This document shows positions 1 through 37,156 of a stretch of 39,587 nt of DNA, one piece after another; positions within the stretch are counted from its first letter, which is position 1, and each line of letters opens with the position of its first letter. The stretch covers positions 1 to 39,587 of the IMG/VR virus record IMGVR_UViG_3300032134_000210; one strand, written 5' to 3'. The stretch comes from a virus. Under the pieces are notes generated by a model. That model saw only the letters and a list, made by a program, of their open reading frames with translations, was not told where the DNA came from and did not search any database. The position numbers and the translations under genes are program-made.

Positions 1-291
1 TCAGCGGCACGACTTCACCGCCGCTTCCAGCTGCCGCTCGTATCCAATTCGCTGACGCCGCTCTGCCAGCAGCGCCCTTACCTTCACCTCCAGGCTGTCT
101 GACTTCCGCAGATCGGCGGCGGCCCATGGCGGCACGGCAACATCCGGCGTGCGTCGAGGAACCTGTACTGGCACCTCGACGCGCACGGTGCGCACCTCTG
201 GTTCGACGCGGGCTGCGCAGCCGGCCAGCAGCAGGACTACGACTGCCAAGGCAGAGCCAGTTTGCAATTTTGCGCAAGTTGGCAAGTTCAT
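1..291 (-). CDS. Rz1-like o-spanin outer-membrane lipoprotein
   Basis: This 96-residue protein is the likely outer-membrane subunit of the spanin complex, which disrupts the outer membrane in the last step of lysis. The N-terminus is a lipoprotein signal: a hydrophobic run at residues 12-23, then a lipobox L-A-G-C with the lipidated Cys at residue 25. After it comes a proline-rich, valine-rich stretch (residues 30-55) typical of Rz1-type proteins. Its ATG overlaps the stop of the upstream i-spanin gene as ATGA, so translation is probably coupled. The stop codon is at the very edge of the window. Unlike lambda Rz1 it is not embedded in Rz but follows it. The assignment rests on lipobox, size and context, not on detailed sequence recognition. 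Confidence 0.8.
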   Translation of the reverse strand: MNLPTCAKLQTGSALAVVVLLLAGCAARVEPEVRTVRVEVPVQVPRRTPDVAVPPWAAADLRKSDSLEVKVRALLAERRQRIGYERQLEAAVKSCR

Positions 292-671
292 AGACCAAGC
301 TCCTTGTCGATGATCGAGGTGGCAGCTACGCATTGGTCGCCACCGGCGCGCTCCTGCTGTAGGCGATTCGCTGCCGCATAGTCGTTTTGGGCGCTGGCTT
401 GGGCAGCCTTCACCGCCTGCTCCGCCCTGGCTTGACGCTCGTTTGCGGCCAGGGTCAGGTCGCCCAAAGCCTTGCCCTGTTCCTGCGTCAAGCCTGCAAG
501 ATTGTCGCGAGCAGCTTTGCAGGTGGCAGCTTCCCCGGCCGAGGCGTCCAGCAGCGGGCGGTAATGCCGGGCCGCCTGCCACACGCCGGCGGCAGCGCCC
601 AGGCCGATTAGCAGTGCGCAGCCGGCCAGCACCGGCAACAACCGGCCGACACCGGCCGACACCGCAATCAT
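288..671 (-). CDS. Rz-like i-spanin (inner-membrane spanin)
   Basis: This 127-residue protein has one N-terminal membrane segment (about residues 10-33) and then a charged, alanine-rich, predicted coiled-coil periplasmic domain (residues 45-110). That is the build of an Rz-type i-spanin, which bridges the inner membrane to the Rz1 lipoprotein across the periplasm. Two Cys residues (about 51 and 113) flank the coiled coil. The gene overlaps the endolysin candidate upstream by 4 bases and the o-spanin downstream by ATGA, giving the order endolysin, Rz, Rz1. The family could be DUF2514 or a relative. The function call comes mainly from architecture and position. Confidence 0.8.
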   Translation of the reverse strand: MIAVSAGVGRLLPVLAGCALLIGLGAAAGVWQAARHYRPLLDASAGEAATCKAARDNLAGLTQEQGKALGDLTLAANERQARAEQAVKAAQASAQNDYAAANRLQQERAGGDQCVAATSIIDKELGL

Positions 672-1120
672 GCCAGCGCCCTCCGCACACCCTCGTCGAT
701 TATCGCCGCCGGGTAAGGGTTTCCGCCGTTCTCATGGATGATGATGCTGACCACCATCCCGCGCAGCGTGGCCGGGTCTTTGATGTTGATCGGGTCCGTT
801 GCGCGCACGCCAAGGCGCTTGGCCACGGCAGCGGCGTAGGCCTGGGTGTCGTTCTCGTTGCTGGGGGCCCAGCGGTTGATGGTCTCCAGCACCGTGTCGA
901 TACCCTTCCCGCCCACGCCGGGCATGCCGTCCTTGCCGCGGTAGTTGATCAGCAGCTTGCCGAGGGCACGAATGCCGTTTTCGGGATGGTCGAAGCGGGC
1001 GAAGCGCGGGCTGGTCACGCCAACCTCCAGGCCGAGCTGGCCCTGCCAGGCGTTGCGGGGATTGAAATCGATGTTTCCGGGGTTGCGGTTGCGAACGCCT
1101 CGGGGCGCGGATTCAGTCAT
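668..1120 (-). CDS. Probable endolysin / peptidoglycan hydrolase
   Basis: This 150-residue soluble protein lies directly upstream of the spanin pair, where lambdoid phages place the endolysin. It opens with an R-N-R-N-P-G-N-I motif at residues 10-17, then an F-A-R-F-D-H-P-E-N-G-I-R-A motif and a long central part ending in a helical domain. Proteins of this type in Pseudomonas phages are often annotated as structural protein or lytic enzyme. I see no signal peptide or signal anchor, so export would depend on the holin. The start at 1120 follows a GGAG Shine-Dalgarno placed just after a terminator hairpin. The catalytic residues cannot be named with certainty, so a virion-associated lysin remains an alternative. 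Confidence 0.6.
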   Translation of the reverse strand: MTESAPRGVRNRNPGNIDFNPRNAWQGQLGLEVGVTSPRFARFDHPENGIRALGKLLINYRGKDGMPGVGGKGIDTVLETINRWAPSNENDTQAYAAAVAKRLGVRATDPINIKDPATLRGMVVSIIIHENGGNPYPAAIIDEGVRRALA

Positions 1121-1140
1121 GGGTTTTCTCCAGGCATAAA

Positions 1141-1163
1141 AAAACCCGCAAGAAGCGGGTTTT
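1141..1163 (-). terminator. Intrinsic terminator after the acetyltransferase gene
   Basis: A perfect 9-bp inverted repeat (1141-1149 with 1155-1163) has a 5-base loop and is flanked by an A-run on one side and a T-run on the other, so it could work in both directions. On the minus strand it ends the acetyltransferase transcript. It lies just upstream of the Shine-Dalgarno of the endolysin gene, so late transcripts must read through it. Confidence 0.85.
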
Positions 1164-1193
1164 TTTGATTTTTCAGTGAAGTATTGAAAACTT

Positions 1194-1976
1194 TTATTGA
1201 GGCGTTGCTGATTTTAGCTCAATCCTTTTCTGCCGGGCCACCTGCAAAATTTCTTTCTGGGTGATAATTCCTGGCGAATATTTCTCAAGCCCAACATCAA
1301 CAATCTCCTCGAGCCGACTCACAAAGGACTCCGGATTACTTGCATCTAGGCCTTTGAACTTATGAAAATGATAATCCCACCATGAGAGAGCTTGTATCCT
1401 AGACACCAACTCATCGGGAAACCTCATTTTTATAACTTTGGCAGGAACTCCTCCAACGATCTGGAATGGAAGAACGTCTTTGGTCACGACTGACCCGGTT
1501 GCAATTATGGCACCATCACCGATTTTCAAATTCCTTTTGAGAGTGACACCTGACCCTATCCAAACGTCATTGCCAATTTCAATGTTCCTAGAGCTTCTTA
1601 ACAGATCTGTGTGCTCAAAGTCATCCGAATGATATTCAGGCGTGTAAAACTTAGGCGAGGTTGAAATCCAATCTGGATAATGATCTGCGCCCATAATAGT
1701 CAGGCCAGAACCAATACTACAATAACGCCCGACTTTGACGCCATGCCCCAATTCACTGTGTGCGTAACTGAACGCCCCCATAGAGCATACCCTGTTTGTC
1801 TTGGAGAACCTGACATCAGTTTCAAGCGCGGTATTTAGATTGAAATGTATATTTCTATACTTCCCACCCTCAGCCTCCTTGATATGAATTTTTTTCTTTA
1901 AAAAAAAATCCCTGACAAGGGCATAGTCCAAGGTAAATACATCATCCGGATAAAAACTATCGTCCTTTCGTGCCAT
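1194..1976 (-). CDS. CatB/XAT-type hexapeptide-repeat O-acetyltransferase (moron)
   Basis: This 260-residue left-handed beta-helix acyltransferase resembles the xenobiotic (CatB-type) branch. Hexapeptide repeats run from about residue 78 to 175 (for example V-K-V-G-R-Y-C-S-I-G and I-G-N-D-V-W-I-G), and the probable catalytic His is H99 in G-A-D-H-Y-P. The conserved V-G-G-V-P-A-K ending is at 174-180, followed by a helical tail. The family transfers acetyl groups from acetyl-CoA to hydroxyls of sugars or small molecules. The gene is clearly AT-richer than its phage neighbours, has its own strong promoter (2028-2056) and ends at a strong terminator, which is the classic moron layout. Lying next to the tailspike, it may O-acetylate the surface polysaccharide of the lysogen. 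That role is inferred, not shown. Confidence 0.85.
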   Translation of the reverse strand: MARKDDSFYPDDVFTLDYALVRDFFLKKKIHIKEAEGGKYRNIHFNLNTALETDVRFSKTNRVCSMGAFSYAHSELGHGVKVGRYCSIGSGLTIMGADHYPDWISTSPKFYTPEYHSDDFEHTDLLRSSRNIEIGNDVWIGSGVTLKRNLKIGDGAIIATGSVVTKDVLPFQIVGGVPAKVIKMRFPDELVSRIQALSWWDYHFHKFKGLDASNPESFVSRLEEIVDVGLEKYSPGIITQKEILQVARQKRIELKSATPQ

Positions 1977-2027
1977 TGCTTACTCAACCTCTATCTTTGT
2001 TATTTTGCCAAAAAACAAAATTAACAA

Positions 2028-2056
2028 ATAATACCACACCCATCCGATCTTGTCAG
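2028..2056 (-). promoter_or_regulatory. Strong sigma70-like promoter of the acetyltransferase gene
   Basis: On the minus strand a -35 box CTGACA (2051-2056) is separated by exactly 17 bases from a -10 box TATTAT (2028-2033). The -10 is preceded by TG at the extended -10 position. The predicted start is near 2021, about 45 bases upstream of the ATG at 1976. The region is AT-rich, unlike the surrounding late genes. Confidence 0.75.
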
Positions 2057-2090
2057 CAATGCCAATCGCGCATCACAAACATTGTTGCTG

Positions 2091-5042
2091 TTACTCCCCA
2101 GAAATAGAATCAACCTTCTTACAAAGGTCTGCAATCATAGCAATGATATTAGCCCGATCAGCTACAAGGGCAGCAATGATGAACGCTTTTAGTTCGTTCA
2201 TCCTAAAGCTGTACAAGTCCCCGGCTTTCTTGATCAAAACTTTTTGAGCTGGGCTAACCTCGACCTGCTCGCCGTGAGCATCATCGATAACGACTGCAGG
2301 CCTATCTTCCCATTCATCACCCCATGAATCGTAACAAATAAAGCTGTATTTCATAGGATCAAGATCATAATAGCGCATGATCTCGATCGCACGCTGCACA
2401 GTCATGCCGCTGTGTAATCTTGCATTGTCGCCTTCGGATTCAACACGCTCTAACCATTGCCATATTCCAAACTCATTAGCCAAGTCAATTCCTGCAGAGA
2501 CTTCGGCGCGAGATAGTTTTCTGACCGGCGTTTTAAGGCGTCCATCCGAGCTAGAAATAGCTGTATTAGCAGCATAAAATGTTGTAAACCTACGATCCGG
2601 TTTGCCTACCGATCGAATATTGTCTTCATCAGGCCTTATATTTCCGGCAAAGTCAATTAGCGACGTTTCGCTATCAAATCTCCCCATTACAACTGTTGAG
2701 TCATCGTTATACAGTCTTACTACTTGACCGCTAACTGACGCATCATTTGAACCGGACCTGAATCGAGACTTACCTGACCTTGCAGAAACAACATAGTTAT
2801 CTGACTGATGCGTCCATGTGTCAGTTGATGGGTTGAACCTTGAAACGGTAGCGCCCGAGGTATCAAGAAGCCGATATTCACCTGAAGGTGTCCGATAGAG
2901 CACAGGAACTCCTGCTGCATCGGTGAATCCAACCCTTTGTCCGGCTCCAGGGCGAATGTCTACGTGACCGCTAACGCCATACGACCAGCCGTCCCATATG
3001 ACTTGATTTGGGCTGAACATGCCAGGGTCCCCTGGCGTAGTGAATCGGCCGTCTGTAGTAGGGTACGCTGGACGGTTGTCGAGCCCTGAAGTGCCACGAA
3101 CTTTCTGTCCAAGTCTAAGCTGGTAGGTGTTAGTGCCGGCAACGTTGCGTATGCCAGTACCGCGACCTTCGACGTCTTTGCTCTCGAATGAACCGTTGTA
3201 CTCCAATTGCAGGACGTTACCCAAATATAGGGCGATGTCATCACAGCTCATGATCTTGCAAGAATCGTTAAACTTCAGGCCACGGATATTTGCCCCGCTG
3301 ATCTCAATGCAGCGCGACGGCGTGGAATAGCGATGCGCACCGAATGCAGCCGAGGTCGCACGGTACTTCCGGTGGTTCATGCCATAGAAGTAGCAGTTAT
3401 CCCAGTTTGCATCCGCCACGCCATTTGTGCGTTCACCCAAGATTACCTTGTTGGCGGTATTGGTTGGATCGATCGAGGCAGGTGATGGGGTGACACCGGT
3501 GATGCGCAGATTAGCGCCAACTTTCTGCGTGCCCGTGTAAGTACAGAACAGACCACCGTACTCTTGAGTGCGGAAAGTGTTGTCAAATGACGGGTCGAAC
3601 GGGTGTGAGTCGAACCATTCAATTTCGATCCAGTCTGCGCCGACCGCCTTAATGTCGTAGAGGTCCGAGCCGCGCACCAAGAACGATGCGAACCCTTGGA
3701 AGTTACAGTGCGAGAACTTGTTGCGCTCCCAGTCCGGTGACCGCATGTCCCCACCTGTTAGAGCAGTGCGACCGAAACACCCAGCCATGCGCCAGAAGCC
3801 AACCACGGAAACGTTGACTGCCGTGAAATCGTGGTGGTTGTCGACCCACAGACCGATATCCCAGTCATCAGCCCAAGTCGCCGCATCTGTGTTGTAACCG
3901 TCAATACCGTCGTAGTAGGGCAACAAGCCGACATCGCGCAGCTGAGCGAAACCGCCTTGCTCTACTTTCCAGCCGCACGAGAATAGCTTCTGCGTGGCAG
4001 GTGCACCGGTCACAGGGTTCGCATCGTTGTTCCAGAACGAAGTTTTGCGGTACGTGCTGTCATACCCTGGCTCAAACGTCGACACGTTGGTGCGTTGGTC
4101 ACCATCGGTCGCACCCGCGCAGGCGGCTAGATTGGCAACATGAACGCGAGGCCCAGTGCCCTTGAATAGATAGTTGGTGCCTATAAGGCGGAACTCGCGA
4201 ATGGGGTCCTGCGGAGTTGAAGGGTTCTTCAGCGGCCCCTCGCCCACGTACTTCACGCCCTGCGGCTGCACTACGGTAGTGGTCGAGATATAGGTACCTG
4301 CAGGCCCAAACACATACCGGCCTCCCGCCCTAGCATGCTCGAAAGCGCATTGCGTGGCTGCCCAGTCCACCTCCTCGGTTAGCGACGTGATGGTGATATT
4401 TGAGTAGTGCAACTGTGCTGCGGCGAGCGTTGAGTAATAATCACCGAGCTGGTGGCTGTTACCATCCCCGATAGCACCATAGTTTTTGATGTTGAGCACT
4501 TCAAGCGACATTACTGCAACATTACGGGCGACGGCACCCGCCAGCGCGGACTTGGCGAAGACCAGTGAAGCCCCCAAAGCGGGGTCAATCGTGCTACCAA
4601 GGTCAGAGCGCAGAATGTCGTCACCCAACGGAGTGAACTTCGCAGAATCTGTCGCCCACACGCCGGTAGTCGTGAATGGCCTAGCAACGCCAGGAGCCGG
4701 GCGCCAGTACACCCCGGACTCAAGAGTGAACTGGTTCGGCTCGGTGAAGGTCAGTCCGGCCGCGAATGGCCCCATATACTGGTAGCCGGTGGATAGCATG
4801 AGCGCATTGAAGCGTTCAGTGCGGTCGCCCTGAGCAGCAAGAAAGCGAATATTGCGCTCAATCTGAGCGGCATCAAATGCCTGCTCCATGCCTGCGATCG
4901 ACTTACGGGTTCGACCTTTCCGGTCAATCCAAATCGGGGCGTCACCGTTTGCAGCCAAGTCGATGTTGCCGGAGTTATCGAACAGGTCGAAAGGACTGCT
5001 GGAGCCATCGGGCTCAACTGGGTTTCCGGTGTTGTAGCGCAT
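2091..5042 (-). CDS. Tailspike / tail fibre with C-terminal S74 autochaperone
   Basis: This 983-residue receptor-binding protein starts with a virion-anchor region (about residues 1-200), followed by the I-K-N-Y-G-A-I-G-D-G motif that opens pectate-lyase-like beta-helix domains. A long beta-rich body follows. Residues about 832-983 form an intramolecular chaperone of the peptidase S74 type: the S-D-G-R-L-K motif supplies the Ser/Lys pair for self-cleavage after trimerisation, and a helical, coiled-coil tail follows. The C-terminal coding part is visibly AT-richer than the N-terminal part, suggesting exchange of the receptor-binding end. I chose ATG 5042 because it follows a GGAG Shine-Dalgarno right after a terminator; an open frame extends further upstream to 5468 but overlaps the preceding gene. 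Whether it degrades a polysaccharide cannot be told from sequence alone. Confidence 0.85.
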   Translation of the reverse strand: MRYNTGNPVEPDGSSSPFDLFDNSGNIDLAANGDAPIWIDRKGRTRKSIAGMEQAFDAAQIERNIRFLAAQGDRTERFNALMLSTGYQYMGPFAAGLTFTEPNQFTLESGVYWRPAPGVARPFTTTGVWATDSAKFTPLGDDILRSDLGSTIDPALGASLVFAKSALAGAVARNVAVMSLEVLNIKNYGAIGDGNSHQLGDYYSTLAAAQLHYSNITITSLTEEVDWAATQCAFEHARAGGRYVFGPAGTYISTTTVVQPQGVKYVGEGPLKNPSTPQDPIREFRLIGTNYLFKGTGPRVHVANLAACAGATDGDQRTNVSTFEPGYDSTYRKTSFWNNDANPVTGAPATQKLFSCGWKVEQGGFAQLRDVGLLPYYDGIDGYNTDAATWADDWDIGLWVDNHHDFTAVNVSVVGFWRMAGCFGRTALTGGDMRSPDWERNKFSHCNFQGFASFLVRGSDLYDIKAVGADWIEIEWFDSHPFDPSFDNTFRTQEYGGLFCTYTGTQKVGANLRITGVTPSPASIDPTNTANKVILGERTNGVADANWDNCYFYGMNHRKYRATSAAFGAHRYSTPSRCIEISGANIRGLKFNDSCKIMSCDDIALYLGNVLQLEYNGSFESKDVEGRGTGIRNVAGTNTYQLRLGQKVRGTSGLDNRPAYPTTDGRFTTPGDPGMFSPNQVIWDGWSYGVSGHVDIRPGAGQRVGFTDAAGVPVLYRTPSGEYRLLDTSGATVSRFNPSTDTWTHQSDNYVVSARSGKSRFRSGSNDASVSGQVVRLYNDDSTVVMGRFDSETSLIDFAGNIRPDEDNIRSVGKPDRRFTTFYAANTAISSSDGRLKTPVRKLSRAEVSAGIDLANEFGIWQWLERVESEGDNARLHSGMTVQRAIEIMRYYDLDPMKYSFICYDSWGDEWEDRPAVVIDDAHGEQVEVSPAQKVLIKKAGDLYSFRMNELKAFIIAALVADRANIIAMIADLCKKVDSISGE

Positions 5043-5063
5043 AATTTCTCCGGGCACAAAAAA

Positions 5064-5080
5064 GCCCGCACTAGGCGGGC
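5064..5080 (-). terminator. Intrinsic terminator between tail-tip and tailspike genes
   Basis: A GCCCGC/GCGGGC stem (5064-5069 with 5075-5080) is followed on the minus strand by six T residues and then by GTGCCCGGAG, which contains the Shine-Dalgarno of the tailspike gene. The same terminator-plus-SD cassette recurs in front of the tape-measure gene. Confidence 0.8.
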
Positions 5081-5098
5081 ATGCTCGATAAGGTCCGG

Positions 5099-8000
5099 TC
5101 AGGCCGGTGGAAATTGGTCGTCGTAGGTGTAAACGCGGGCGTCGTAGGGCATGCCCTTCATTGCCGTGTTGCCGTTGACTGGGTCGGAACTGGTGATCAG
5201 AACCGGATAGGCCCAGCGCGAGGCCGGGCCGAACAGGATGTGCGGCGGCTCCAGCGGGCCGTCCACTTCTGGCGTGAAGTCGAGCACGTCGACCTGCACC
5301 GTGTACTGATCCACCTGCGTTGCCGTCCAAGGCCCAGACAGCGTGCCGTCCAGCTTGCGAACGCCGATCAGGTGCTCGCCGCCGGCGCTGAAGTCCAGCG
5401 GCTCCGATGAGCTCAGCAACGTGCCCGAACCGGTCACCTCGAAGTCCAGCAGGATCGCGCTCTGGCAACGCTTTGGCGCGTCATCCGCAACGGCTGCGAA
5501 GCTCAAGTAGCCGCTGTTGCTGCCGTCCATTTCGGTTTCCCAGGTGTAGATGTCGGTCCTGAACTTCTGGTGGCCACGCCGGCGCATGCCGATACGGTAG
5601 GCCCTGGTCCTGTCGCTGATGCCAGGCATCTTGATCTTCTCGACCTTGGTGCCGAGGTCACCCGGCCACCGGCACTCGACCGTCTCCCACGCCCAGGTGG
5701 TGCGCGAGAAGAACTCCACATCCACGCCGTCGAAGTCGTTGATCGACGGCATGGCGCCGCTGATCTTCAGCATCTTGGTCATGTTCTGCGGCGAGTAGGT
5801 CTGGGTCTTCGGGCCGTAGGTCACATCGAACGCGGCCCGGGCGCTATCCCGAACCGGGCGCAGCAGGCCCCGGAAGGTCACCAGTTCGCCGAAGCTGCAC
5901 GCCAAGGCATTGTTGATCATGTCCTTGACCGTTATCGTCGATTCCAGCGTTTCGTCGTAGGTGTCTCCGCGGGCAACGCAGATGTTGTGGAAGGCCTGCC
6001 ACTCGGGCAGATCCAGGTCATCATCAGCGTACCCGCGCTGCTTCAGCTGGTAGATGCACCAAGGAACGATGTCGCGGCTTGGCCCGGTACCACCCTCCAT
6101 CAGCGGGAGAATGCGAGTCGCCTCAACGCTGACCTGGCTCTCAGACTGCGCAGACAGACGGTCACCGCCGCGGATGTTGCAGGTGATGACCGTCAAGCCT
6201 GGATAGCTGGTGGGCGAGTTCTGCATCCGCCCGCGCAGGTCCGTCCATGTTGCGTCATCACGCGCTTCATCGTTGATACGGCCGGGACGATCCACGTACT
6301 GCTTGCGGATACGGGCCTCGGCGCGCATTGCGTATGGCAGCGATACGCGCTCAGTGAAGCCCTGGGCATCAAGCGACCCACCCACGTTCATGTACTGGAG
6401 CTGGGTCCAGGCTCCGGACACGTCCATGTCGCGATACTCGAACACGTAGTAGGTCGGAATCTCGTAGATCTGCCCCTCGCGTCCTATGCCGCACAGGCCA
6501 TTGGCGTAGGTTACGGTCCACTCCAGTTCGATGACCTTCTCGTTGTCCGGGCAGCAGGAGAACGGCCCTCGGTAACCGCCTTGCAGATTCGAGGCGTCCA
6601 GCGTTATGAGGCCGTTCACCGTCTGCATGGAATTGAAGCCAGGCCAGTCCTCATCGGCCGATCCAGACGAGGTCAGTCGCTCCACCTCAATCAGGCTCGT
6701 GCTGAAGGCCGTGATCCGGTAGCGGAGGCCGCGCGGGCCGATAGTTGCCAGACCTTGGCCCAACGCAAGGCCGACCACCGGCTCGCCACCGTCGTAGTTC
6801 AGCGTCATCTCAGCCGGATGCGCAGGCGTGCCGCCGGTAGTGGCTGTGCCTGTGACACCTACTGGCGCAGAGCCCAACACTACCGAAGCGCCGGACGCCG
6901 TGATGGGCATGCCGAAGAACGGAGTCAGTTCTACGAAGCGAATCACGCCTGAGGACTGCTCGGCCTTGATCGGCACGCCAGTCAGTTGCACATTCAGAGC
7001 CGAGACCAGACCGGCAATGTCTGTTGTCGCGGAGTTCAGGGCTACTGGGTATGCCGTTCCTGCGTGCGAAATTGTGAAGCCGAGCGGCGTCACGTCAAAA
7101 TCGTACCGGCTTGGCGCTGCGGACCCTGTCAGCGTAGAAGCTGACCCTGGATCAGCCGGAACTGCTGGCACTGCTGGCGTGAAGCTGTGCACCACGTACA
7201 TCCCGGCATTTGCTCCAGCCACTTCGATCAGCATACCCGAGCTTGGATTCAGCATTTCCAGCGGACCGCGGATGATGTCACGGTCAGCGCCTCCGTCGAC
7301 TACCTCATAGCTGTACGGAGCCAAAGCCCGAATAATGATCCCGCTGGACCAGTCCTCCGGGAATTGGCCGGCACCGGCAGGAGCGCTGATCGTATCGCCG
7401 ACGAACTGATACGCGGAAGCCGTGGCCGACCTGGTGAGGTCGGTGGCCATGGTCAGTTCCAGGCCGGCCGAGCCGCTGGAGCTTGCCCCTACCTCAGGAA
7501 CGTTGAACCAGTTGATGTGGGCCGGGTCGCCCGACAGATCAGCGCCTGGCGGGTAAATCGTGAACGTTGCATCGGATCCGAGGGAGATCAGCGGGGTTTC
7601 GCCAACCTTGACCTTGGCCAGCGGTACGTCGTACTCGCCTTCGCCGATGTACAGCAGCATTTCCACGCGCTGGTCACGCGGGGCGACATGCGCCCGGCGG
7701 GGCTGGGTCAGATACGACGGATAAACCCGCTGATGGCCGGCGATCTGGCGCACTGGCTCTCCCAGCTTGACCTTGTTGCCCTTGGCGCTGGCCTCGGTCA
7801 GAGGGTCACCCTGCTGGGTGCCGGCGCTGGATGGCATGCCGGGCATCTTGGGCATAATCGACTTCAGCACCGCCTTGGCGCCTTTGAACAGCGCGAAGGT
7901 GATGGAAAATGGGTCGGTGCCTTTCGGCTCGCGGTAGATCTGCAGAAGGTCGGCAGGCTTGAACTTCACCTTGTGCCACAGGTGCTGCTCGATCAGCTCA

Positions 8001-8155
8001 TCATTGAGGGCAATGCTGATTGGCGGACTTTCCCGGCGCTCATAGGACGGGGCCAGGGACTTCAGCCACTCCTCGATCGACATGCGGCGGTCGGTCTTCC
8101 AGGTGCCGAGAGGCGCCGTATCAGACAGCTTGTTCGGATAGAACTCGACGGTCAC
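5099..8155 (-). CDS. Tail tip / central fibre protein (lambda J-like)
   Basis: This 1018-residue protein occupies the slot of lambda gpJ, downstream of the NlpC/P60 tail-assembly gene and upstream of the tailspike. It is predicted to form the tail-tip hub that contacts the host or carries the spike. The first 100 residues are compact and charged, the middle is rich in Gly/Ser/Thr beta repeats, and the last third (from about residue 640) resembles the phage-tail baseplate-hub fold of J proteins. The start is a GTG at 8155 with AAGGTGG about 10 bases upstream, and it overlaps the preceding gene by 35 bases. At 1018 residues it is close to lambda gpJ (1132). The assignment rests mainly on position and size. 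Confidence 0.75.
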   Translation of the reverse strand: MTVEFYPNKLSDTAPLGTWKTDRRMSIEEWLKSLAPSYERRESPPISIALNDELIEQHLWHKVKFKPADLLQIYREPKGTDPFSITFALFKGAKAVLKSIMPKMPGMPSSAGTQQGDPLTEASAKGNKVKLGEPVRQIAGHQRVYPSYLTQPRRAHVAPRDQRVEMLLYIGEGEYDVPLAKVKVGETPLISLGSDATFTIYPPGADLSGDPAHINWFNVPEVGASSSGSAGLELTMATDLTRSATASAYQFVGDTISAPAGAGQFPEDWSSGIIIRALAPYSYEVVDGGADRDIIRGPLEMLNPSSGMLIEVAGANAGMYVVHSFTPAVPAVPADPGSASTLTGSAAPSRYDFDVTPLGFTISHAGTAYPVALNSATTDIAGLVSALNVQLTGVPIKAEQSSGVIRFVELTPFFGMPITASGASVVLGSAPVGVTGTATTGGTPAHPAEMTLNYDGGEPVVGLALGQGLATIGPRGLRYRITAFSTSLIEVERLTSSGSADEDWPGFNSMQTVNGLITLDASNLQGGYRGPFSCCPDNEKVIELEWTVTYANGLCGIGREGQIYEIPTYYVFEYRDMDVSGAWTQLQYMNVGGSLDAQGFTERVSLPYAMRAEARIRKQYVDRPGRINDEARDDATWTDLRGRMQNSPTSYPGLTVITCNIRGGDRLSAQSESQVSVEATRILPLMEGGTGPSRDIVPWCIYQLKQRGYADDDLDLPEWQAFHNICVARGDTYDETLESTITVKDMINNALACSFGELVTFRGLLRPVRDSARAAFDVTYGPKTQTYSPQNMTKMLKISGAMPSINDFDGVDVEFFSRTTWAWETVECRWPGDLGTKVEKIKMPGISDRTRAYRIGMRRRGHQKFRTDIYTWETEMDGSNSGYLSFAAVADDAPKRCQSAILLDFEVTGSGTLLSSSEPLDFSAGGEHLIGVRKLDGTLSGPWTATQVDQYTVQVDVLDFTPEVDGPLEPPHILFGPASRWAYPVLITSSDPVNGNTAMKGMPYDARVYTYDDQFPPA

Positions 8156-8528
8156 GGTAGTACACCACCTTAGGATGAGCGGCTTCGAATTCGCCAGTTG
8201 TCCGGAGGCAGGCGCCGCCGGGGTTTGTGTCCAGCACCTTCAGCCGACCCTCGCTCAGGAGGACCGTGCCGACGTGAAGTAGCGCTTCTCCGCGCAGAAC
8301 CGCCGCAATTGCGCCTGGCTCTGGTCTGCACTCTTCCATGGCCTTGCGCAGCGCTCGGTAGGCCTTCGTGTTCGCGCGGATCTTGTCCTTGCCCACGCCC
8401 CCAAGGGATGGCAGCAGATCCAGCCCGAAGAACTCGTGACGGATCGCCCGACACAAACCCCAGCAATCGAAGGCAATAGGCCCCCGTGCACCCTCGCGAT
8501 ACGGGGCGCGCATGAATTTCTCGATCAT
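8121..8528 (-). CDS. NlpC/P60-type tail assembly peptidase (lambda K-like)
   Basis: This 135-residue protein has the NlpC/P60 cysteine-peptidase signature F-D-C-W-G-L-C with the catalytic Cys at residue 22, and a H-V-G motif supplying the catalytic His near residue 85. Phage members of this family (TIGR02219-like) act at the tail tip and can cut cell-wall peptide crosslinks during DNA entry. It is short because it lacks the Mov34-like N-terminal domain of lambda gpK. It lies between a DUF1833-like gene and the J-like gene and overlaps the latter by 35 bases. Confidence 0.8.
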   Translation of the reverse strand: MIEKFMRAPYREGARGPIAFDCWGLCRAIRHEFFGLDLLPSLGGVGKDKIRANTKAYRALRKAMEECRPEPGAIAAVLRGEALLHVGTVLLSEGRLKVLDTNPGGACLRTTGEFEAAHPKVVYYRDRRVLSEQAV

Positions 8529-8530
8529 GG

Positions 8531-9010
8531 TCAGATGTACTTCAGGCCAGGTGCCAAGGTGGTGGTCAGCACGGTGCGCAGACCGTTGGTGTTGAGCAGG
8601 TCGAAGAAGCCGGCGGTGAGTTTGGCCACGTCGTCTTCATATTCACGACTGAGCAGCGTCATGCGGTACCGCTCCTGCGGGAACGACAGGTCTTCGGCCA
8701 GGTAGCGGCGGAAAGTGATGATGAAGCGCTTGTCGGCAGCCTTCGCTGTCTCAACCACCTCCTGCACCTCACCCGTGACGTTGTCCAGGCCAAGCACCAA
8801 GTTCTGGAACGCGCTGTTGTCGTTCTTCGGCAGGGCCAGGTCCATGGCCATCGCGATGAAGGTGAGCGTGCGGCCGTCCTCGGTGGTGCACACCCGGTCT
8901 TCCCAGCCAGAGCAGTAGAGATAAGAGACGGAGCCGCCCTCCTCCCGCGCCTCAATGGTGTCGACCAACTCGCCTCTGCCCGAGGCGTAACACTCCTCGA
9001 TCAGGCTCAT
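8531..9010 (-). CDS. DUF1833-like minor tail protein
   Basis: This 159-residue protein fits the DUF1833 family of phage tail-tip proteins (the N-terminus has E-E-C-Y-A-S-G, followed by alternating strands with conserved aromatic residues). It sits where lambda has gpL, between the M-like gene and the NlpC/P60 gene, and probably forms part of the tail-tip complex. Its ATG overlaps the stop of the upstream gene by 4 bases. The exact role is not known. Confidence 0.65.
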   Translation of the reverse strand: MSLIEECYASGRGELVDTIEAREEGGSVSYLYCSGWEDRVCTTEDGRTLTFIAMAMDLALPKNDNSAFQNLVLGLDNVTGEVQEVVETAKAADKRFIITFRRYLAEDLSFPQERYRMTLLSREYEDDVAKLTAGFFDLLNTNGLRTVLTTTLAPGLKYI

Positions 9011-9459
9011 GCTTCAGGCCACTCCCTGTTCATAGCGAGGTCGATCACGTTCTTGTTCAGCCAGTACTGAGGGAACTGCTCCCATCCTTCGGGAATGAGC
9101 TGCCGCTGCTTGAGCTCCGCACTGATGGAGTATCTCCAGCGCGAGACCTGAGTGAGCTCTGTTCGCCCATACATCCCTACGAAATGAACCTGGTACTTGG
9201 CGAATCCAGCAGGAAGCTGGAGAGGCATTTCGAACCACTCCAGACCGTCATTCAGCGTCCTTGCATACCAGGCTTCAAAGAAGCCCGCCTCATCCTCATC
9301 GAAGACAAAGTTGAATGTCAGGGTCGAAGGAACGTAACTGTGCACCTTTCGGTATCGGCGCCGCCCGGTGACCATTCGCGTTGAGCGCATTGGGTCAACC
9401 GTGTCGTAGCCATACCCATCCTGCAGCGGAAGTGGCAATTCTGCCGGGTATTGAATCAT
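9007..9459 (-). CDS. Minor tail protein (lambda M-like position)
   Basis: This 150-residue protein is rich in aromatic residues and beta structure and has no membrane segment. It follows the tape measure and a small ORF, in the position of lambda gpM, which helps cap the tail tip before tube polymerisation. An R-R-Y-R-K-V-H-S-Y motif lies near residue 34. I do not recognise a named family with certainty. Its role as a tail-tip protein is inferred from gene order only. Confidence 0.6.
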   Translation of the reverse strand: MIQYPAELPLPLQDGYGYDTVDPMRSTRMVTGRRRYRKVHSYVPSTLTFNFVFDEDEAGFFEAWYARTLNDGLEWFEMPLQLPAGFAKYQVHFVGMYGRTELTQVSRWRYSISAELKQRQLIPEGWEQFPQYWLNKNVIDLAMNREWPEA

Positions 9460-9486
9460 TGCCGTTCCTCAGCTGAGGTTTGCGTT

Positions 9487-9630
9487 TTAGGTGAGAGGGC
9501 TGAGGCCCAGCGCGTCCTCTAGACGGGCTAGCCGCCGCTGCAGCAGAAGCTCTTTCTCGTCCGGCGGGACAACAGGATCGGGCACAGGCGCGCCCGGCCC
9601 GTCATCAGCCTCTTCGGTTTCGGTGGTCAT
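9487..9630 (-). CDS. Small acidic/proline-rich protein after the tape measure
   Basis: This 47-residue ORF lies between the tape-measure and M-like genes. The ATG at 9630 has an AAGGGA Shine-Dalgarno 8 bases upstream and the TAA is at 9487. The first half is acidic and proline-rich; the second half is a basic amphipathic helix (residues about 26-42, with L-Q-R-R-L-A-R-L-E). It fills the space between its neighbours exactly and has the codon use of the flanking genes. The function is unknown; a small assembly partner of the tape measure is possible. Confidence 0.65.
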   Translation of the reverse strand: MTTETEEADDGPGAPVPDPVVPPDEKELLLQRRLARLEDALGLSPLT

Positions 9631-9641
9631 GAGATTTCCCT

Positions 9642-12374
9642 TTAGGATCCCTGTCGGCGCAGGCCGTAGGCATCTTCCAGCGCTTGAGACATAGGGCCGT
9701 TACCCCAGATATCGGCCACATACACGGTTGCCATCTGATCGCCGTTGTCGTCGCGACTTTGCTCGACCTCTCCAGCGCGAGATCTGTCCTGCACCAGATT
9801 TACCACCAGGTTGGTCTGAGCTGCTGCCGGAGCCTGGGCGCTGCCAGACGACTGAGTCGAAACAACAGAGCTTCCCCCTCCAGCCACCGATACCCGCTCG
9901 TTCGAGTTGATCGCCTCCAGCAGAGCTCGGTTGCGCTTGGTGGCCGCGGCATTCACCACGAACTCGCCGTCACTCAGCCGGGCCATGATGCTGTCGGAGG
10001 TGCCGGTGCCGGCGCCAGACACATAGCCGCCGGTGGCGAAGCCTGGAAGGCTGACCGAACGGATCGATGCAACCTGGGCCATCTGCGCAGTGAGCGCAGC
10101 GCCTGCGGCCGCAATGCCGAGCGCAGGACCGACAATTGGGATGCCGGCCATTGCTGAGTAGGCATCACTCGCTGTTTTCGGGGCATTGATCAAGGCCTGA
10201 GCGATTGCCACGGCCTTCGAGACAGCAAACATCGCCTTGTAGGCAGAAGACTGCTCGCCTGCAAACGTTCCAACAACACTGGTCAGGTCGCTGAACATGT
10301 CCTGAGCGATGGCGATTCTAGCCATGCTCATTGCCTGCTCGTTCCTCATGGTATCGGCGGCACGCTGTTGCTCGAGCTGACGAATTGTCTCGTCATATTG
10401 AGCAGCATTCTCCACCTCAAGCTCGCGGTACTGCTGGTACATCGCTATCCGCTGGTCGTACCACGCCTGAAGCTGAGCATTCTCCTCGGCCATGCGTGTC
10501 AGTTCTGAGCTAGGCCCGCCGACCTCTGCCGAAATCACAGAGGTATTCGGCTTGCCGCTAAAGATCTGACCCTTGATCGATGAGTCGATACCTGCCCTGG
10601 CGATGTTGCCAGCCGGCCCCTGGATTCCTGTTGCTGCCGCTTTTTGCGCGTAGAGCTCTGCCAGGCTTTGACCTTTGACGTACTCTTCGTTGATCTGCTT
10701 CAGCCTGGCCAGGTGCTGATCCTGCCCCTGAACAATGGACGCATAGTTAATGGATGCCTGCGCCAATGCTTTGCTGTACTCACTCTGGCTGATTGCGCCA
10801 CGGTCCAGTGCAAATTGGAGCTGTTGCTGCTCTCTGGTGAGGGAGCGCACCGCTTGAGCGGCAGGGTCGTATTGCCCATACAGTTTGGCGAACAACCCCA
10901 GCGCCTCGGAGAGTCCTTTCTTTGCCTCGGCGGTAGCTTTTGCGTTTGCCGAACCGAGATCCTTAGCCGCCTTTTCTGCAGCAGCTTTCCGGTCTTTTTC
11001 CTCGGCGTACTGCAGCAGCAGCTTTTCCTGCTCTGGCAGAAGCTTGCCAAGCTCTCCAGTTTCAATGGCATACCTGACCTTGGCTGCCTCTGAGTTTTCC
11101 CCTTGTAGGGCGGCCTGCTTTTTCAGGCTGGCCAGCATTTTTTCGTATTCAGCGTTAACGACCGCGGCAGGCTCTTCGCCTTTTGGCTTCTGCGCACCAG
11201 TCCCGGCTGCTGCTGACTCCATCTTGCTTACGATCGCTCTGATCGCAGTGGACTTCCCCTCAAGCTCTTTGATCTCGGCATCAATCTCTGCGCGGTCGTA
11301 GAACTTGAACTTGAAAAAGACCGTATCAGCCGGGTTATCCTTTGCCAGCTTTGACCTTGCGTTCTGCAGGTCACGAATATCGGCCATGGTGACGCTGAGC
11401 TCGTTGTTCAGCCCGGCTACGGTTTGCTTGTCCTTGCGGAAAAAGTCCAGAAACTCGCCGGAGTTGAACCCATCCATGGCGCGTGCCAGCGCTGCAATCC
11501 CGCCAGCTAGCCTACTGCTTGCCCCGGTAGCCTCGTCCAGCCTGCCAACAGTGGTGATCAAGGCGTTATTGAAAGAGGTGATCGCTTGGCTGACGGTAAG
11601 GGTCATGGCCGAACTTAGTTCGTCGACCTTGTCTTTCTGATTTTGGAGGGCCTTAACCACTGCTTCGGATGTCAGCTTACCTTCTGCGCCCATTGCCCTT
11701 AGTTGGCCGATCGTTACTCCAAGGCCGCGAGCGATTGCCTGGGCCAGGGCCGGCGTCTGCTCCATGATCGAGTTCAATTCGTCGCCGCGTAGCGTTCCGG
11801 ATGCCAGCGCCTGGCCAAATTGAACCATAGCCGCATCGGCGGCCTGAGCACTGGCGCCGCTGAGTGCGACCGTTTTCGCCACCGTCTCGGTGACGCTGGC
11901 CACATCAGAGAAGTCGAGCCCGAGCTGTCGTGCGTTTTGTGCAACCCGCTGATAGACCTGGGCAGTAACCTCGAGCGACTGCCGTGAGTTCTGGGCGACC
12001 AGGTAAACCGATTCCTGGGCGAACGCCAGCTGCTCTGCGCTTTCAGTTACCAATCGCAGCCGGTTTGTCAGGTTTACGTACTGCTCAGCGGCTGCTGCAA
12101 TTTTCGCAACACTGAACGCCGCCGCAATTGGTCCGGCCAGTCCAGTGACTGCCGAAGCAAGTCGGTCTGTCTGGCCTTCCAGAGTTCTGACTTTAGAGGC
12201 GCTTGTTGACGCCTGATTGCCCATCTCACGGATACCGGCCTCGACCCTATCCATCGCCGGGTCAACACGGTTGCCGGCTGACTCCAAGGCACTCAAGTCC
12301 TTGGTCATCGCTCGGGTGTCACGCTGAGCACCTCTGGAGTCGATCGTAACCGCCAGGCGAGACTCTTGGTTCAT
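9642..12374 (-). CDS. Tail tape measure protein
   Basis: This 910-residue protein sets tail length and is threaded through the tube. The N-terminal 280 residues match the conserved tape-measure start domain (for example a G-D-E-L-N-S-I-M-E-Q-T-P-A-L-A-Q segment). Long alanine- and glutamine-rich helical stretches follow, and a small hydrophobic segment lies near residues 735-790 (A-A-A-G-A-A-L type). The start at 12374 is preceded by GGAG directly behind a terminator; a GTG 15 bases further upstream is in frame but badly placed. It follows the GT chaperone module, as in lambda. Confidence 0.9.
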   Translation of the reverse strand: MNQESRLAVTIDSRGAQRDTRAMTKDLSALESAGNRVDPAMDRVEAGIREMGNQASTSASKVRTLEGQTDRLASAVTGLAGPIAAAFSVAKIAAAAEQYVNLTNRLRLVTESAEQLAFAQESVYLVAQNSRQSLEVTAQVYQRVAQNARQLGLDFSDVASVTETVAKTVALSGASAQAADAAMVQFGQALASGTLRGDELNSIMEQTPALAQAIARGLGVTIGQLRAMGAEGKLTSEAVVKALQNQKDKVDELSSAMTLTVSQAITSFNNALITTVGRLDEATGASSRLAGGIAALARAMDGFNSGEFLDFFRKDKQTVAGLNNELSVTMADIRDLQNARSKLAKDNPADTVFFKFKFYDRAEIDAEIKELEGKSTAIRAIVSKMESAAAGTGAQKPKGEEPAAVVNAEYEKMLASLKKQAALQGENSEAAKVRYAIETGELGKLLPEQEKLLLQYAEEKDRKAAAEKAAKDLGSANAKATAEAKKGLSEALGLFAKLYGQYDPAAQAVRSLTREQQQLQFALDRGAISQSEYSKALAQASINYASIVQGQDQHLARLKQINEEYVKGQSLAELYAQKAAATGIQGPAGNIARAGIDSSIKGQIFSGKPNTSVISAEVGGPSSELTRMAEENAQLQAWYDQRIAMYQQYRELEVENAAQYDETIRQLEQQRAADTMRNEQAMSMARIAIAQDMFSDLTSVVGTFAGEQSSAYKAMFAVSKAVAIAQALINAPKTASDAYSAMAGIPIVGPALGIAAAGAALTAQMAQVASIRSVSLPGFATGGYVSGAGTGTSDSIMARLSDGEFVVNAAATKRNRALLEAINSNERVSVAGGGSSVVSTQSSGSAQAPAAAQTNLVVNLVQDRSRAGEVEQSRDDNGDQMATVYVADIWGNGPMSQALEDAYGLRRQGS

Positions 12375-31716: not shown

Positions 31717-32502
31717 TCAGAACTCCAGGCGCTTGATTTCAGAAAGCAGCGCACGGCTGTGACGCTGGATGTAGATCTGGCTCAGCTTCTTCTTGCGCGA
31801 CTCGAAGTCCATGCCCACGTCAATCAGGGAGGCATTCACGCGCTGAAGGTGCTCGATGCAGCGGATTTCGCACGGAGTCAGGTGGTCGCGGATCGAGTCA
31901 GTCGGGCTGATGCAGTGCGCCGCCCGGTATGCCTTTGACGGCATGCCCAGCGCGATGCGGTTGATCAGGTCGAACTCGTTGCTGAAGTGGTAGTGTTTAA
32001 CGTCCTTTCCGACAGACAGGCGACCATGCTTGATAGCCTCGGTCAGGGCCGGAGCCTCAAGGCGCGCTCGCTCACGGGCCTGGCGCCCCTCCACCAACTG
32101 GATGTGCCCGACAACTACGGCATCGAAGGTACGGATTACGTGCAGGTGGAACTTGGCATTCACCCACATTGCGTAGGCGTAGATAAGCTCCTTGACGACA
32201 TAGGTGCCGCCATTGCGACCCTCAATAGTCACCACCGGCAAACTACCCGGATTTTGGGTAGTTAACTCAGCCACCATTTCGGCGAAGGATTCCGTAGCCA
32301 TGAACTTGCCTGGCTCTTTGGTGCGCTTGTTCGCTCCATCGGCCACGGCCGCCTTGTGAAGGTCATTGAGGCAGTAACGGCCCTCAATATCCTGCTTGAT
32401 CTTCACCCCTCCAAGGGTGAGTGACATGCTGCGCGCCACGAAATCGTGGTTCGCATTTTGTGGCGCGAGGGCCACGGTATTGCTTTGGATGGTCTGATGC
32501 AT
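31717..32502 (-). CDS. KilA-N domain protein (possible antirepressor)
   Basis: This 261-residue protein has a KilA-N DNA-binding domain at about residues 26-130 (Y-C-L-N-D-L-H-K-A-A, then Y-V-V-K-E-L-I-Y-A-Y-A-M-W-V) followed by a helical C-terminal domain (160-261). In phages such proteins act as antirepressors or early regulators. ATG 32502 has GAGG about 10 bases upstream. A second in-frame ATG at 32427 (residue 26) lies just after dyad repeat copy C and right before the KilA-N domain, so a shorter product is possible, as for P1 Ant. The first 25 residues are disordered. Confidence 0.8.
   Translation of the reverse strand: MHQTIQSNTVALAPQNANHDFVARSMSLTLGGVKIKQDIEGRYCLNDLHKAAVADGANKRTKEPGKFMATESFAEMVAELTTQNPGSLPVVTIEGRNGGTYVVKELIYAYAMWVNAKFHLHVIRTFDAVVVGHIQLVEGRQARERARLEAPALTEAIKHGRLSVGKDVKHYHFSNEFDLINRIALGMPSKAYRAAHCISPTDSIRDHLTPCEIRCIEHLQRVNASLIDVGMDFESRKKKLSQIYIQRHSRALLSEIKRLEF
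32431..32466 (-). repeat. Dispersed dyad repeat, copy C
   Basis: Arms GCGCGCCACGAAATCG and GCATTTTGTGGCGCG (complementary with small mismatches) lie within the 5' coding part of the KilA-N gene, encoding residues about 12-24. The copy closely matches those at 18582 and 24471. Confidence 0.7.
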
Positions 32503-32543
32503 ATATGATGACCTCACACAAGCGTTACGAATGCAGTTGAATC

Positions 32544-33360: not shown

Positions 33361-33407
33361 GCCATTGCCTAATCGCTCTAGCGATAGGCCTAATTAGGCA
33401 ATGCTTA
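33336..33407. promoter_or_regulatory. Operator cluster OR1-3
   Basis: Three related palindromic sites lie between cro and cI: 33336-33350 (TAAGGCATTACCTTA), about 33359-33373 (AAGCCATTGCCTAAT) and about 33393-33407 (ATTAGGCAATGCTTA). The last overlaps the repressor ATG. They share a TTAGGCATTGCCTAA-like core with sites at 37517-37625. Confidence 0.75.
33365..33394 (+). promoter_or_regulatory. PRM-like promoter for the repressor (leaderless mRNA)
   Basis: A weak -35 TTGCCT (33365-33370) and -10 CCTAAT (33389-33394) at 18-base spacing would start RNA at or next to ATG 33401. There is no Shine-Dalgarno before that ATG, which fits a leaderless transcript like that of lambda cI from PRM. Confidence 0.5.
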
Positions 33408-34243
33408 CCGGACCAGAATTAGGCGCAGCCATTGATGCCGCGCGGATCGCCAAGGGCGTATCGAAGAAACAACTCGCAGACGACTTCCAGGTGAAGCCTC
33501 CGTCAGTGCAGGGCTGGGTGAAAAACGGCCGGATTGACAAGTCCAAGCTGATGGATGTGATCGTTTACTTTTCTGACGTGGTGGGCCCCGAGCACTGGGG
33601 GCTTCGGCCTGGCTTCTCTTACGAGAGCCTTCCGGAGGTGACTTCGGAGCCTGTCGCCGAGCCGGCGCCGGCCTCAGCTGCCGAAATGGTTCGAGCAATG
33701 CTCGCCAAGCAAGGCAAGAACTTGTCGGATACAGCGCGCGCGCAGTTGATTGCAGCCGCCGAAGCGACTGATGAGGGAAATGTGATTACCGCAGACTTCT
33801 CTCGGCCTGGCCTGGTCGGTGATGAGGTTAGGATCGCTCACTACGACATCCGCGCAGCAATGGGCGGAGGCCAGATTCCGCACGATTACCCGGAGATGCT
33901 CAAAGACATTCGCGTCAGTCCGAGCCATCTACGCGAGCTGGGGGTCGAGTTTGAGGAGCACTACCACCTGAAGGTGGTCACCGGCTGGGGCCAGTCGATG
34001 GAGCCCACCATCAAGCACCGTGACCCGTTGATCGTGAACATCAACGTGCGCGACTTCGTGGGCGATGGGGTGTACCTATTCGTCTGGGATGACCTGCTCT
34101 ACATCAAGCGGCTGCAGGTGGCTGATGAGGAGCACTACGAGATGATTTCGGACAACCCGCGGCACAAGGATCGACTGATCCGGCGGGACATGACCTACAT
34201 CCAGGCGCGGGTGCTACTGGTCTGGAACACACATCTTGTTTAA
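33401..34243 (+). CDS. CI/LexA-type phage repressor (S24 peptidase)
   Basis: This 280-residue repressor has an N-terminal helix-turn-helix (residues about 8-45: S-K-K-Q-L-A-D-D-F-Q-V-K-P-P-S-V-Q-G-W) and a C-terminal S24 self-cleaving domain. The catalytic Ser199 is in W-G-Q-S-M-E-P-T and the Lys236 in Y-I-K-R-L. The cleavage region is probably A-A-M-G-G-G near 152-157. RecA-stimulated self-cleavage would induce the prophage. The start overlaps an operator and has no Shine-Dalgarno, suggesting leaderless autoregulated expression. It is followed 37 bases later by the ATPase/methyltransferase cassette. Confidence 0.9.
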   Translation: MLTGPELGAAIDAARIAKGVSKKQLADDFQVKPPSVQGWVKNGRIDKSKLMDVIVYFSDVVGPEHWGLRPGFSYESLPEVTSEPVAEPAPASAAEMVRAMLAKQGKNLSDTARAQLIAAAEATDEGNVITADFSRPGLVGDEVRIAHYDIRAAMGGGQIPHDYPEMLKDIRVSPSHLRELGVEFEEHYHLKVVTGWGQSMEPTIKHRDPLIVNINVRDFVGDGVYLFVWDDLLYIKRLQVADEEHYEMISDNPRHKDRLIRRDMTYIQARVLLVWNTHLV

Positions 34244-34279: not shown

Positions 34280-36097
34280 ATGAACATAATCGGGCGTGAC
34301 GCTTTAGACCAAAAATTTAGACATAAAACTAAAGATTTTGAACCTTTCATTAGCCACATAAGATTTCCGAAATACCGAAATCTTGAACCTGGCCTAAAGC
34401 TAGACTTTTTATACCCGATAACAGCTCTCGTTGGTGAGAACGGAACCAACAAAAGCTCAATCATCAGAGCACTTTTCGGCGCCCCTGCGGACAACTCTCC
34501 AGGCACATTTTGGTTCTCGACATCGTTAGACCCTATAGAGGAAGAAGGCGGGACCCCCAACTGCCTAATTTACGGCTACCTCAACGAGCATGAGAACCGG
34601 ATTGTTGAAGTTCTTAAAACACGTTCCAGATACGATAAAACAGTGGCGGGTCAAAACCCTGACTACTGGGAACCTTCGCGCCCGATAGTAAAATATGGCA
34701 TGGAAAGAATGCCTCCAATTAAGACTGGCGCCCCCTTACCTAAAGGGCGATCAAAAACCAGATATAACGCAATAGCCAAAAAAGTCACTTTACTAGATTT
34801 CAGAACAGAGCTAAGCGCCTATGATAAATTTTTTTACCACGGCGATTTTCTCAAAACTGAAAAAATAAAAACCAAGCAGGACTTCATTCGACACAAGTCA
34901 ATTCATCTTCATGCCGCAATTGAAGCAAAATCGGCAAGTTACTTATATTATGGTAGAGATAAAATAGAAGACAAGCTCAATCGCGAACTTAGCAAGGATG
35001 AAACCGAACTTGTTTCATACGTTTTGGGGCGATCGTATAAAAAAATTGAAATAGTTGCGCACACGTTTTTTAAGAACCCTGGAAAAACTGTTCGTTTGTC
35101 ACATTCAGACATTCGGTATTCAGAGGCATTCGCAGGAAGCGGAGAGTTCGCGGTCGTCATGTTAGTGCTTGGCGTACTACAAGCCCCTCCAAACTCTCTA
35201 ATCCTACTAGACGAACCTGAAGTTTCGCTACATCCTGGCGCGCAGGAACGACTAATGAAGCTGCTTATTAGCGAGGTCACAAAAAATAATCACCAGGTTA
35301 TTTTATCTACTCACTCACCAGCGATTATTAGGCACCTCCCGCCATCCGCAATCAAAACCCTCAGATTGAACGAAAACACTGGAAAGGTCGCTTTGGTTTC
35401 GCAGAGCCTGTCTCCAGACGATGCATTTTACTACATCGGTGAACCTTCAGCGACTAAGCTTACAATTATTGTGGAGGATAAGCTCGCCAAATCGATAGTG
35501 GAAAGAGCCCTAAAAAGCTTGGGGCCTCACGTTGAAAAATATGAAGTAATGTATATACCAGGTGGTGCGGAAGCCTTGTGGGCGACCTATGTTCCAATAT
35601 TTTGCATTGCCGATCGAAAAGATATTCTTTTTCTTCTCGATGGAGACAAACGAAAACCTCCATTACGTAAATCCTCCTCAATACCAGAAGCGGAAAATGA
35701 AAGTCTCGGAGAAGAGATTAAAAAGCTAACCGGTTGTAAAATCGACTTCAAGATCGATGGGAGCGGAAAAAGCGGCGGAAACAAATCTCAACTTTACTCT
35801 ATGCAACGCCAATTTATAGATTGGACATCGCAGTATGTTGATTTTTTACCAATGAATACTGCAGAGGAATTCATAGTGGCAAATAGCCCTTCTTTTTCAA
35901 CGACGCATAAAAACCGTGACGCGAAAGAGATCATACTGGATTACGCAAAAACCCAACTTGACAGAGGCAGCGCAGACCAAATAAAATCTGAGGAGATTTT
36001 TACAATTCAATGTATTGAGCTAGCATTAATTCCTTTTAGCAATGCCGATTTCGAAAAAATACGCTCTCGAATCGAGAAATTCAATGATGGCAGATAG
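34280..36097 (+). CDS. OLD-like ATPase with C-terminal TOPRIM nuclease domain
   Basis: This 605-residue protein has an ABC-type ATPase domain: Walker A G-E-N-G-T-N-K-S-S at residues 52-60, an A-G-S-G-E-F signature-like motif at 285-290, Walker B L-I-L-L-D-E-P at 307-313 and an S-T-H-S switch at 343-346. A TOPRIM-like domain follows, with I-V-E-D-K at 397-401 and L-L-D-G-D-K at 452-457, plus a L-P-M-N-T-A-E-E segment near 523-530 as in OLD-family nucleases. Such proteins are anti-phage effectors that cut DNA under ATP control. The gene is markedly AT-rich. There is no Shine-Dalgarno; a TATAAA at 34266-34271 may give a leaderless transcript. The next gene starts directly after its stop. Confidence 0.8.
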   Translation: MNIIGRDALDQKFRHKTKDFEPFISHIRFPKYRNLEPGLKLDFLYPITALVGENGTNKSSIIRALFGAPADNSPGTFWFSTSLDPIEEEGGTPNCLIYGYLNEHENRIVEVLKTRSRYDKTVAGQNPDYWEPSRPIVKYGMERMPPIKTGAPLPKGRSKTRYNAIAKKVTLLDFRTELSAYDKFFYHGDFLKTEKIKTKQDFIRHKSIHLHAAIEAKSASYLYYGRDKIEDKLNRELSKDETELVSYVLGRSYKKIEIVAHTFFKNPGKTVRLSHSDIRYSEAFAGSGEFAVVMLVLGVLQAPPNSLILLDEPEVSLHPGAQERLMKLLISEVTKNNHQVILSTHSPAIIRHLPPSAIKTLRLNENTGKVALVSQSLSPDDAFYYIGEPSATKLTIIVEDKLAKSIVERALKSLGPHVEKYEVMYIPGGAEALWATYVPIFCIADRKDILFLLDGDKRKPPLRKSSSIPEAENESLGEEIKKLTGCKIDFKIDGSGKSGGNKSQLYSMQRQFIDWTSQYVDFLPMNTAEEFIVANSPSFSTTHKNRDAKEIILDYAKTQLDRGSADQIKSEEIFTIQCIELALIPFSNADFEKIRSRIEKFNDGR

Positions 36098-37114: not shown

Positions 37115-37126
37115 GATTCAGTTGTT

Positions 37127-37147: not shown

Positions 37148-37156
37148 CAACCTCCC

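Follow-up and report, generated by a model that had tools for sequence, protein, structure and literature searches.

A hexapeptide-type acetyltransferase gene between tailspike and endolysin in a D3/PAJU2-related phage: a probable lysogenic-conversion gene acting on host surface polysaccharide

The gene studied here encodes a predicted acetyltransferase and, as the original prediction had placed it, lies intact between the genes of a tailspike and an endolysin. Throughout the text, the window is the whole stretch of DNA that was analysed, a virus record of 39,587 bases. The features on which the argument draws are as follows.

668–1120, minus strand: endolysin gene, the downstream bound of the slot (PHROG 873, 1.2e-60).
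About 1138–1166, minus strand: intrinsic terminator before the endolysin gene, palindromic and terminator-like on both strands (−16.7 kcal/mol, z = −4.2).
1194–1976, minus strand: gene of a predicted O-acetyltransferase of 260 aa with the left-handed beta-helix (hexapeptide) fold; open reading frame with an ATG start and an intact frame.
1977–2090, minus strand: AT-rich intergenic leader (GC 0.38) with the promoter and the ribosome-binding-site-like stretch AGAGGTTGAG, both read from the sequence.
2028–2056, minus strand: extended −10 promoter of sigma70 type by sequence match, CTGACA-N17-TATTAT with TGG before the −10.
2091–5027, minus strand: tailspike gene with a C-terminal endosialidase-type (S74) chaperone domain (PHROG 1171, Pfam Peptidase_S74).
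5064–5080, minus strand: terminator-like hairpin that separates gpJ from the tailspike gene, the upstream edge of the receptor-binding module.
5099–8155: gpJ, in the region upstream of the tailspike gene.
33401–34243, plus strand: CI-like repressor gene (PHROG 4, 2.1e-30; Pfam Peptidase_S24).

Two parts of the window, 1–9976 and 36001–39587, were compared with a 51,713-base IMG/VR contig (G004) and are identical to its matching parts, which indicates that both come from one phage, with the contig as the longer copy. A tyrosine integrase is encoded at the far end of this contig, and together with the CI-like repressor gene of the window it indicates that the phage is temperate. In the terminase region, identity to Pseudomonas phages reaches 84%, and the tail-tip protein J is 40–47% identical to J of PAJU2, D14O, PS-1 and D3. 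A megablast search with the first 25 kb of the window returned no record of a phage that has the greater part of this sequence in common with it. Based on these sequence comparisons, we assign the phage to the D3/PAJU2-related temperate phages of Pseudomonas type.

The acetyltransferase gene has a GC of 0.433 and a GC3 of 0.437, while the GC3 of Rz, endolysin, gpJ and TerL ranges from 0.73 to 0.84. Over its final 300 codons (about 2091–3000), the tailspike gene also has a GC3 of only 0.36–0.46, so that a block of foreign appearance extends from about 1190 to 3000. The much lower GC that the gene was said to have relative to its neighbours therefore holds against the endolysin gene but not against the tailspike gene, and low GC as a trait of the acetyltransferase gene alone was rejected, the tailspike gene being equally low over its last third. 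From about 1200 to 3000, the window phage is 99–100% identical to two related phages (L003 and L004). The identity to both drops to 74–94% at 3000–3600 on the tailspike side, and to 56–78% over the endolysin gene on the other side of the block. Among IMG/VR contigs, the acetyltransferase gene is carried only by the window's own phage and two relatives; separate scans with the acetyltransferase and with the tailspike recovered the same three contigs at 97–100% identity, one of them from the window's own phage. The co-occurrence fits a joint module, with the linkage resting on three contigs of close relatives, numbers too small for a claim. A gene found in all relatives, with phage-like GC and no separate promoter, is what the original prediction had named as speaking against it; three contigs, low GC and a promoter-like site were found instead. 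No donor was found among 391 genomes of the order of Oceanobacter kriegii (G001), where homologues reached at most about 45% identity.

Analyses of the protein point to a predicted enzyme with an intact active site. It matches Pfam Hexapep (PF00132) with 50.9 bits against a cut-off of 27, and the AlphaFold2 monomer model (pLDDT 85, pTM 0.82) finds its best PDB matches in type-B CATs and Vat. Sequence and model together place it in the hexapeptide (left-handed beta-helix) acyltransferase superfamily, whose members form homotrimers with the active sites lying where subunits meet. No match to the membrane domain PF01757 (Acyl_transf_3) was found in it. His99 and Trp139 are invariant in all 47 aligned homologues, and are the predicted catalytic residue and the predicted acetyl-CoA-side residue, respectively, following the roles of the catalytic His, located in a protruding loop, and of the conserved Trp opposite it in hexapeptide enzymes as described with the NeuO structure (PMC3046976).

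The protein had been called CatB-type, a label that stands at the level of the fold and not at that of the family. CatB and Vat enzymes share with it the superfamily, the hexapeptide core and the catalytic His and Trp; the best PDB matches by both sequence and fold are CatB8, type-B CATs and Vat, and Vat-like genes occur on Streptococcus phages, all of which would agree with a phage-borne xenobiotic acetyltransferase of the drug-resistance kind. However, the protein scores 110.2 bits against the CatB family (NCBIfam NF000490), whose cut-off is 350, and 111.2 bits against the Vat family (NF000311), whose cut-off is 300. The loop that joins the conserved Gly67 to the conserved Gly83 counts 15 residues in the phage protein and 14–22 in 37 of the other homologues, compared with 31–33 residues in the five drug enzymes (CatB2, CatB3, CatB8 and two Vat proteins) and in four relatives grouping with them; its length separates capsule-type from drug-type enzymes without overlap. 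In the structures of CatB and Vat, the long loop is presumably part of the drug pocket. In a maximum-likelihood tree, which is unrooted and has a weak deepest split, the phage protein pairs with a protein of Actinobacillus porcinus (support 100/99) in a set that also holds a capsule-locus protein of E. coli, and the drug enzymes group elsewhere. Furthermore, the phage protein has a longer C-terminus in common with these two capsule-locus relatives, and no resistance or integron genes were seen beside its gene. The drug-resistance identity was rejected on score, loop and tree, and we give it hardly any credence; the top rank of CatB and Vat in the fold comparison mostly reflects that they are solved relatives in the superfamily. 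A 'CatB' label on a phage gene need not mean drug resistance.

The genomic surroundings of the homologues are dominated by polysaccharide genes. The closest relative, the A. porcinus protein (L011), is 52% identical and is encoded in a capsule locus among Stealth, TagF-like, capsule-synthesis, KpsC-like and KpsS-like genes. The E. coli relative (UPEC_U013, about 33% identity) lies beside ABC-transporter and capsule genes of a kps-type locus. These two are the closest to the phage protein in sequence and have the same short loop and long C-terminus, but they are chromosomal capsule genes whereas the gene in the window is phage cargo. Around 18 further homologues, 111 flanking proteins were collected, and their commonest families are glycosyltransferases (12–14 proteins in each of the top three), followed by sugar-nucleotide dehydratases/epimerases, polysaccharide flippases, NeuB and ligases. 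Such company points to a glycan as the acceptor of the enzyme.

The position between tailspike and endolysin genes is a recurrent site of cargo in temperate phages of Pseudomonas type, and the acetyltransferase gene occupies the same slot. In D3, the slot extends from the tailspike (orf27) to the endolysin (orf31) and holds iap, the O-antigen acetylase gene oac and wzy(beta). PAJU2 and D14O carry an antisense O-antigen acetylase of AT3+SGNH type, and JBD44 carries an antisense pair of MBOAT and AlgX-like proteins; no annotated cargo of such a kind is present in the slot of PS-1 and DDSR119. The JBD44 pair (L219:12839-15450) is an alginate-acetylation-like system as phage cargo, and its AlgX-like SGNH protein is annotated only as hypothetical.

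For the survey of this slot, the best 80 of 417 endolysin relatives in IMG/VR were used, and twelve loci were picked among them for low-GC or antisense ORFs, as a selected set and not a census. They hold AT3 proteins (L097, L131 and L150, with L105 assigned by its likeness to L097), hexapeptide proteins (L091, which is the window's phage, and L156), glycosyltransferases (L125 and L155), a pyruvyl transferase (L164), a C5-epimerase-like protein (L146) and cargo without a Pfam match (L111 and L153). The cargo of L164 (4501–5622 and 6601–7851, about 3.4 kb in all) comprises a gene for a protein resembling polysaccharide pyruvyl transferases and a second antisense ORF of low GC. The protein of L146 (6945–7862) has a D-glucuronyl C5-epimerase-like domain behind a lipoprotein-like N-terminus, which is unusual for a phage. 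The literature searched, whose coverage is incomplete, mentions neither a CatB-like nor a hexapeptide acetyltransferase in a D3-type slot. The fold is new relative to the annotated D3-type phages examined, with a second hexapeptide slot protein in L156. The D3 conversion slot appears to take soluble hexapeptide acetyltransferases besides AT3, MBOAT/AlgX-like systems and sugar-modifying enzymes. Several unrelated acetylation machineries share this position next to the receptor-binding gene, which speaks for selection acting on the receptor's own O-acetylation.

The same survey bears on the terminator. A GC-rich hairpin with a T-run lies about 30–45 nt before the endolysin start in 66 of the 80 relatives, with or without cargo, and three cargo-free phages (L094–L096) are among those that have it. 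These observations assign the terminator to the slot, and a terminator that is part of the cargo was rejected. The gene had been described as a self-contained cassette with its own terminator: the strong hairpin is indeed present at about 1166–1138 on the minus strand, but it is ancestral to the slot and not the acetyltransferase gene's own, and the gene is not self-contained. The tailspike and acetyltransferase genes lie between two terminators, this hairpin and the one at 5064–5080.

The promoter that the original prediction described as near consensus, with an extended −10, was recovered. No other site in the 39.6 kb, on either strand, scores as high as this promoter-like site (2056–2028, minus strand) when the match to consensus is counted with a bonus for an extended −10; if the 114-bp intergenic region around it is shuffled, its score is reached with P = 0.0037. 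A generic promoter scan of 6 kb gave 4 sites where 3.0 were expected, which is no more than chance. The site is better than anything upstream of the other slot cargo tested, none of which, D3 oac and wzy included, has a good promoter match. Consensus promoters are thus not supported as a general trait of slot cargo, and the absence of a match says little. Based on its sequence, the promoter should express the acetyltransferase from the repressed prophage. The stretch from the tailspike stop (2091) to the acetyltransferase gene yielded no terminator, so late transcription probably passes through this gene as well.

For the mechanism, the nearest precedent by analogy is NeuO of coliphage CUS-3. 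NeuO is a soluble enzyme of the same fold (structure, PMC3046976), and its gene lies directly behind the endosialidase tailspike gene on the same strand. This O-acetyltransferase modifies the K1 capsule, a polysialic acid, and shields K1 cells from phages (PMC13001214; PMC9659370); superinfection exclusion by NeuO has been proposed in the first of these two papers (PMC13001214). Both NeuO and the protein in the window are prophage-encoded hexapeptide left-handed beta-helix enzymes with a His/Trp catalytic pair (predicted in the window) and a same-strand gene directly downstream of a tailspike, and the tailspike in the window carries a chaperone domain of endosialidase type. The two differ in sequence, with weak similarity (PDB 3jqy, E 5.7e-8 over 61 residues), and in the phase-variable heptad (heptanucleotide) repeats at the 5' end of NeuO, which the window gene lacks; no tandem repeat was found in 1100–2200. 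The comparison with D3 that had been drawn holds for the slot position and fails for the mechanism. D3, PAJU2, D14O and JBD44 share with the window phage a related tail-tip protein J, the tailspike–endolysin slot and host surface O-acetylation (predicted for the window), but their enzymes are unrelated membrane proteins (AT3, as is Oac of D3, and MBOAT), whereas that of the window is soluble like NeuO and would act in the cytosol. Once altered by D3 Oac, the O-antigen no longer allows the phage to bind (review, PMC11436027). AT3 enzymes move acetyl across the membrane and NeuO uses no AT3 protein (PMC9558356), and we therefore propose cytosolic acetylation of the nascent glycan.

Collectively, the gene probably encodes a cytosolic O-acetyltransferase of the host surface polysaccharide, a lysogenic-conversion gene that would be expressed from its own promoter in the prophage and would exclude phages using the same receptor. 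We infer the substrate class, the expression in the lysogen and the exclusion from sequence and analogy. The soluble, acetyl-CoA-dependent enzyme would acetylate the O-antigen, capsule or exopolysaccharide of the Pseudomonas host in the cytosol, during synthesis. The repressed prophage would express it from its own promoter, and read-through from the tailspike gene would add late expression during lysis. The altered glycan may be the one read by the adjacent tailspike, such that phages of the same receptor type would be excluded and wasteful re-adsorption reduced. The protection would be analogous to that of CUS-3 NeuO on K1 cells and of D3 Oac on the D3 lysogen. A conversion acetyltransferase altering the surface polysaccharide, encoded near the receptor-binding gene, is what had been expected here, and comparison with the slot cargo and with the homologues in capsule loci supports it well. 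The gene is a further example of the surface-glycan O-acetyltransferases of phages, a known strategy and not a new kind of system. A cytosolic enzyme might, however, find no acceptor in the polysaccharide of the host.

Several other readings start from the close association with the tailspike gene. The enzyme may be produced chiefly late, its gene being the last one on the tailspike transcript, and acetylate new surface glycan, such that released virions are kept from sticking to debris or infected siblings, with expression in the lysogen being secondary. Its gene is on the same strand directly behind the tailspike gene, no terminator was detected in the gap, and one follows immediately downstream, but the promoter-like site before it is the strongest of the window; moreover, slot cargo is antisense to the late genes in many relatives, and such cargo cannot depend on late transcription. 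We consider this role in late lysis rather unlikely. It is conceivable, though not likely, that the C-terminal part of the tailspike and the acetyltransferase form a matched exchangeable module, in which the enzyme acetylates the very glycan position read by the spike and both pass jointly between phages. If this were true, reading the enzyme would predict the receptor of the spike.

The enzyme might instead make the epitope, with a tailspike that needs the acetylated glycan and both genes acquired together from a host lineage with acetylated polysaccharide. Low GC and near-identity do span the tailspike's C-terminal third through the acetyltransferase as one block, and the two genes co-occur in every contig found (three). 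A naive host, however, must already bear the receptor for infection, and in the D3 and K1 cases acetylation blocks or lowers infection by phage (PMC11436027, PMC13001214), which makes this reading improbable. We hold it similarly improbable that the gene is a passenger, recently captured with tailspike DNA and idle in the present host. Its low GC suggests recent capture, and with so few near-identical copies selection cannot be measured. Yet the frame is intact, with all active-site residues, a promoter and a ribosome-binding-site-like stretch; the gene is identical or nearly so in three phages whose flanks differ by 5–25% or more; and its position is equivalent to that of known conversion genes. 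The reading as a conversion gene acting on surface polysaccharide is thus the one we favour.

Other parts of the window carry further genes of interest. A low-GC gene pair at 34280–37114 (plus strand) adjoins the CI-like repressor gene. One member encodes a 605-aa AAA/OLD-like ATPase with several PADLOC defence ATPase matches (best HEC-04, 5.6e-31) and the other a C5 cytosine methyltransferase; the pair is possible defence or anti-restriction cargo. A KilA-N domain protein encoded at 31717–32517 (minus strand) resembles phage regulators and antirepressors.
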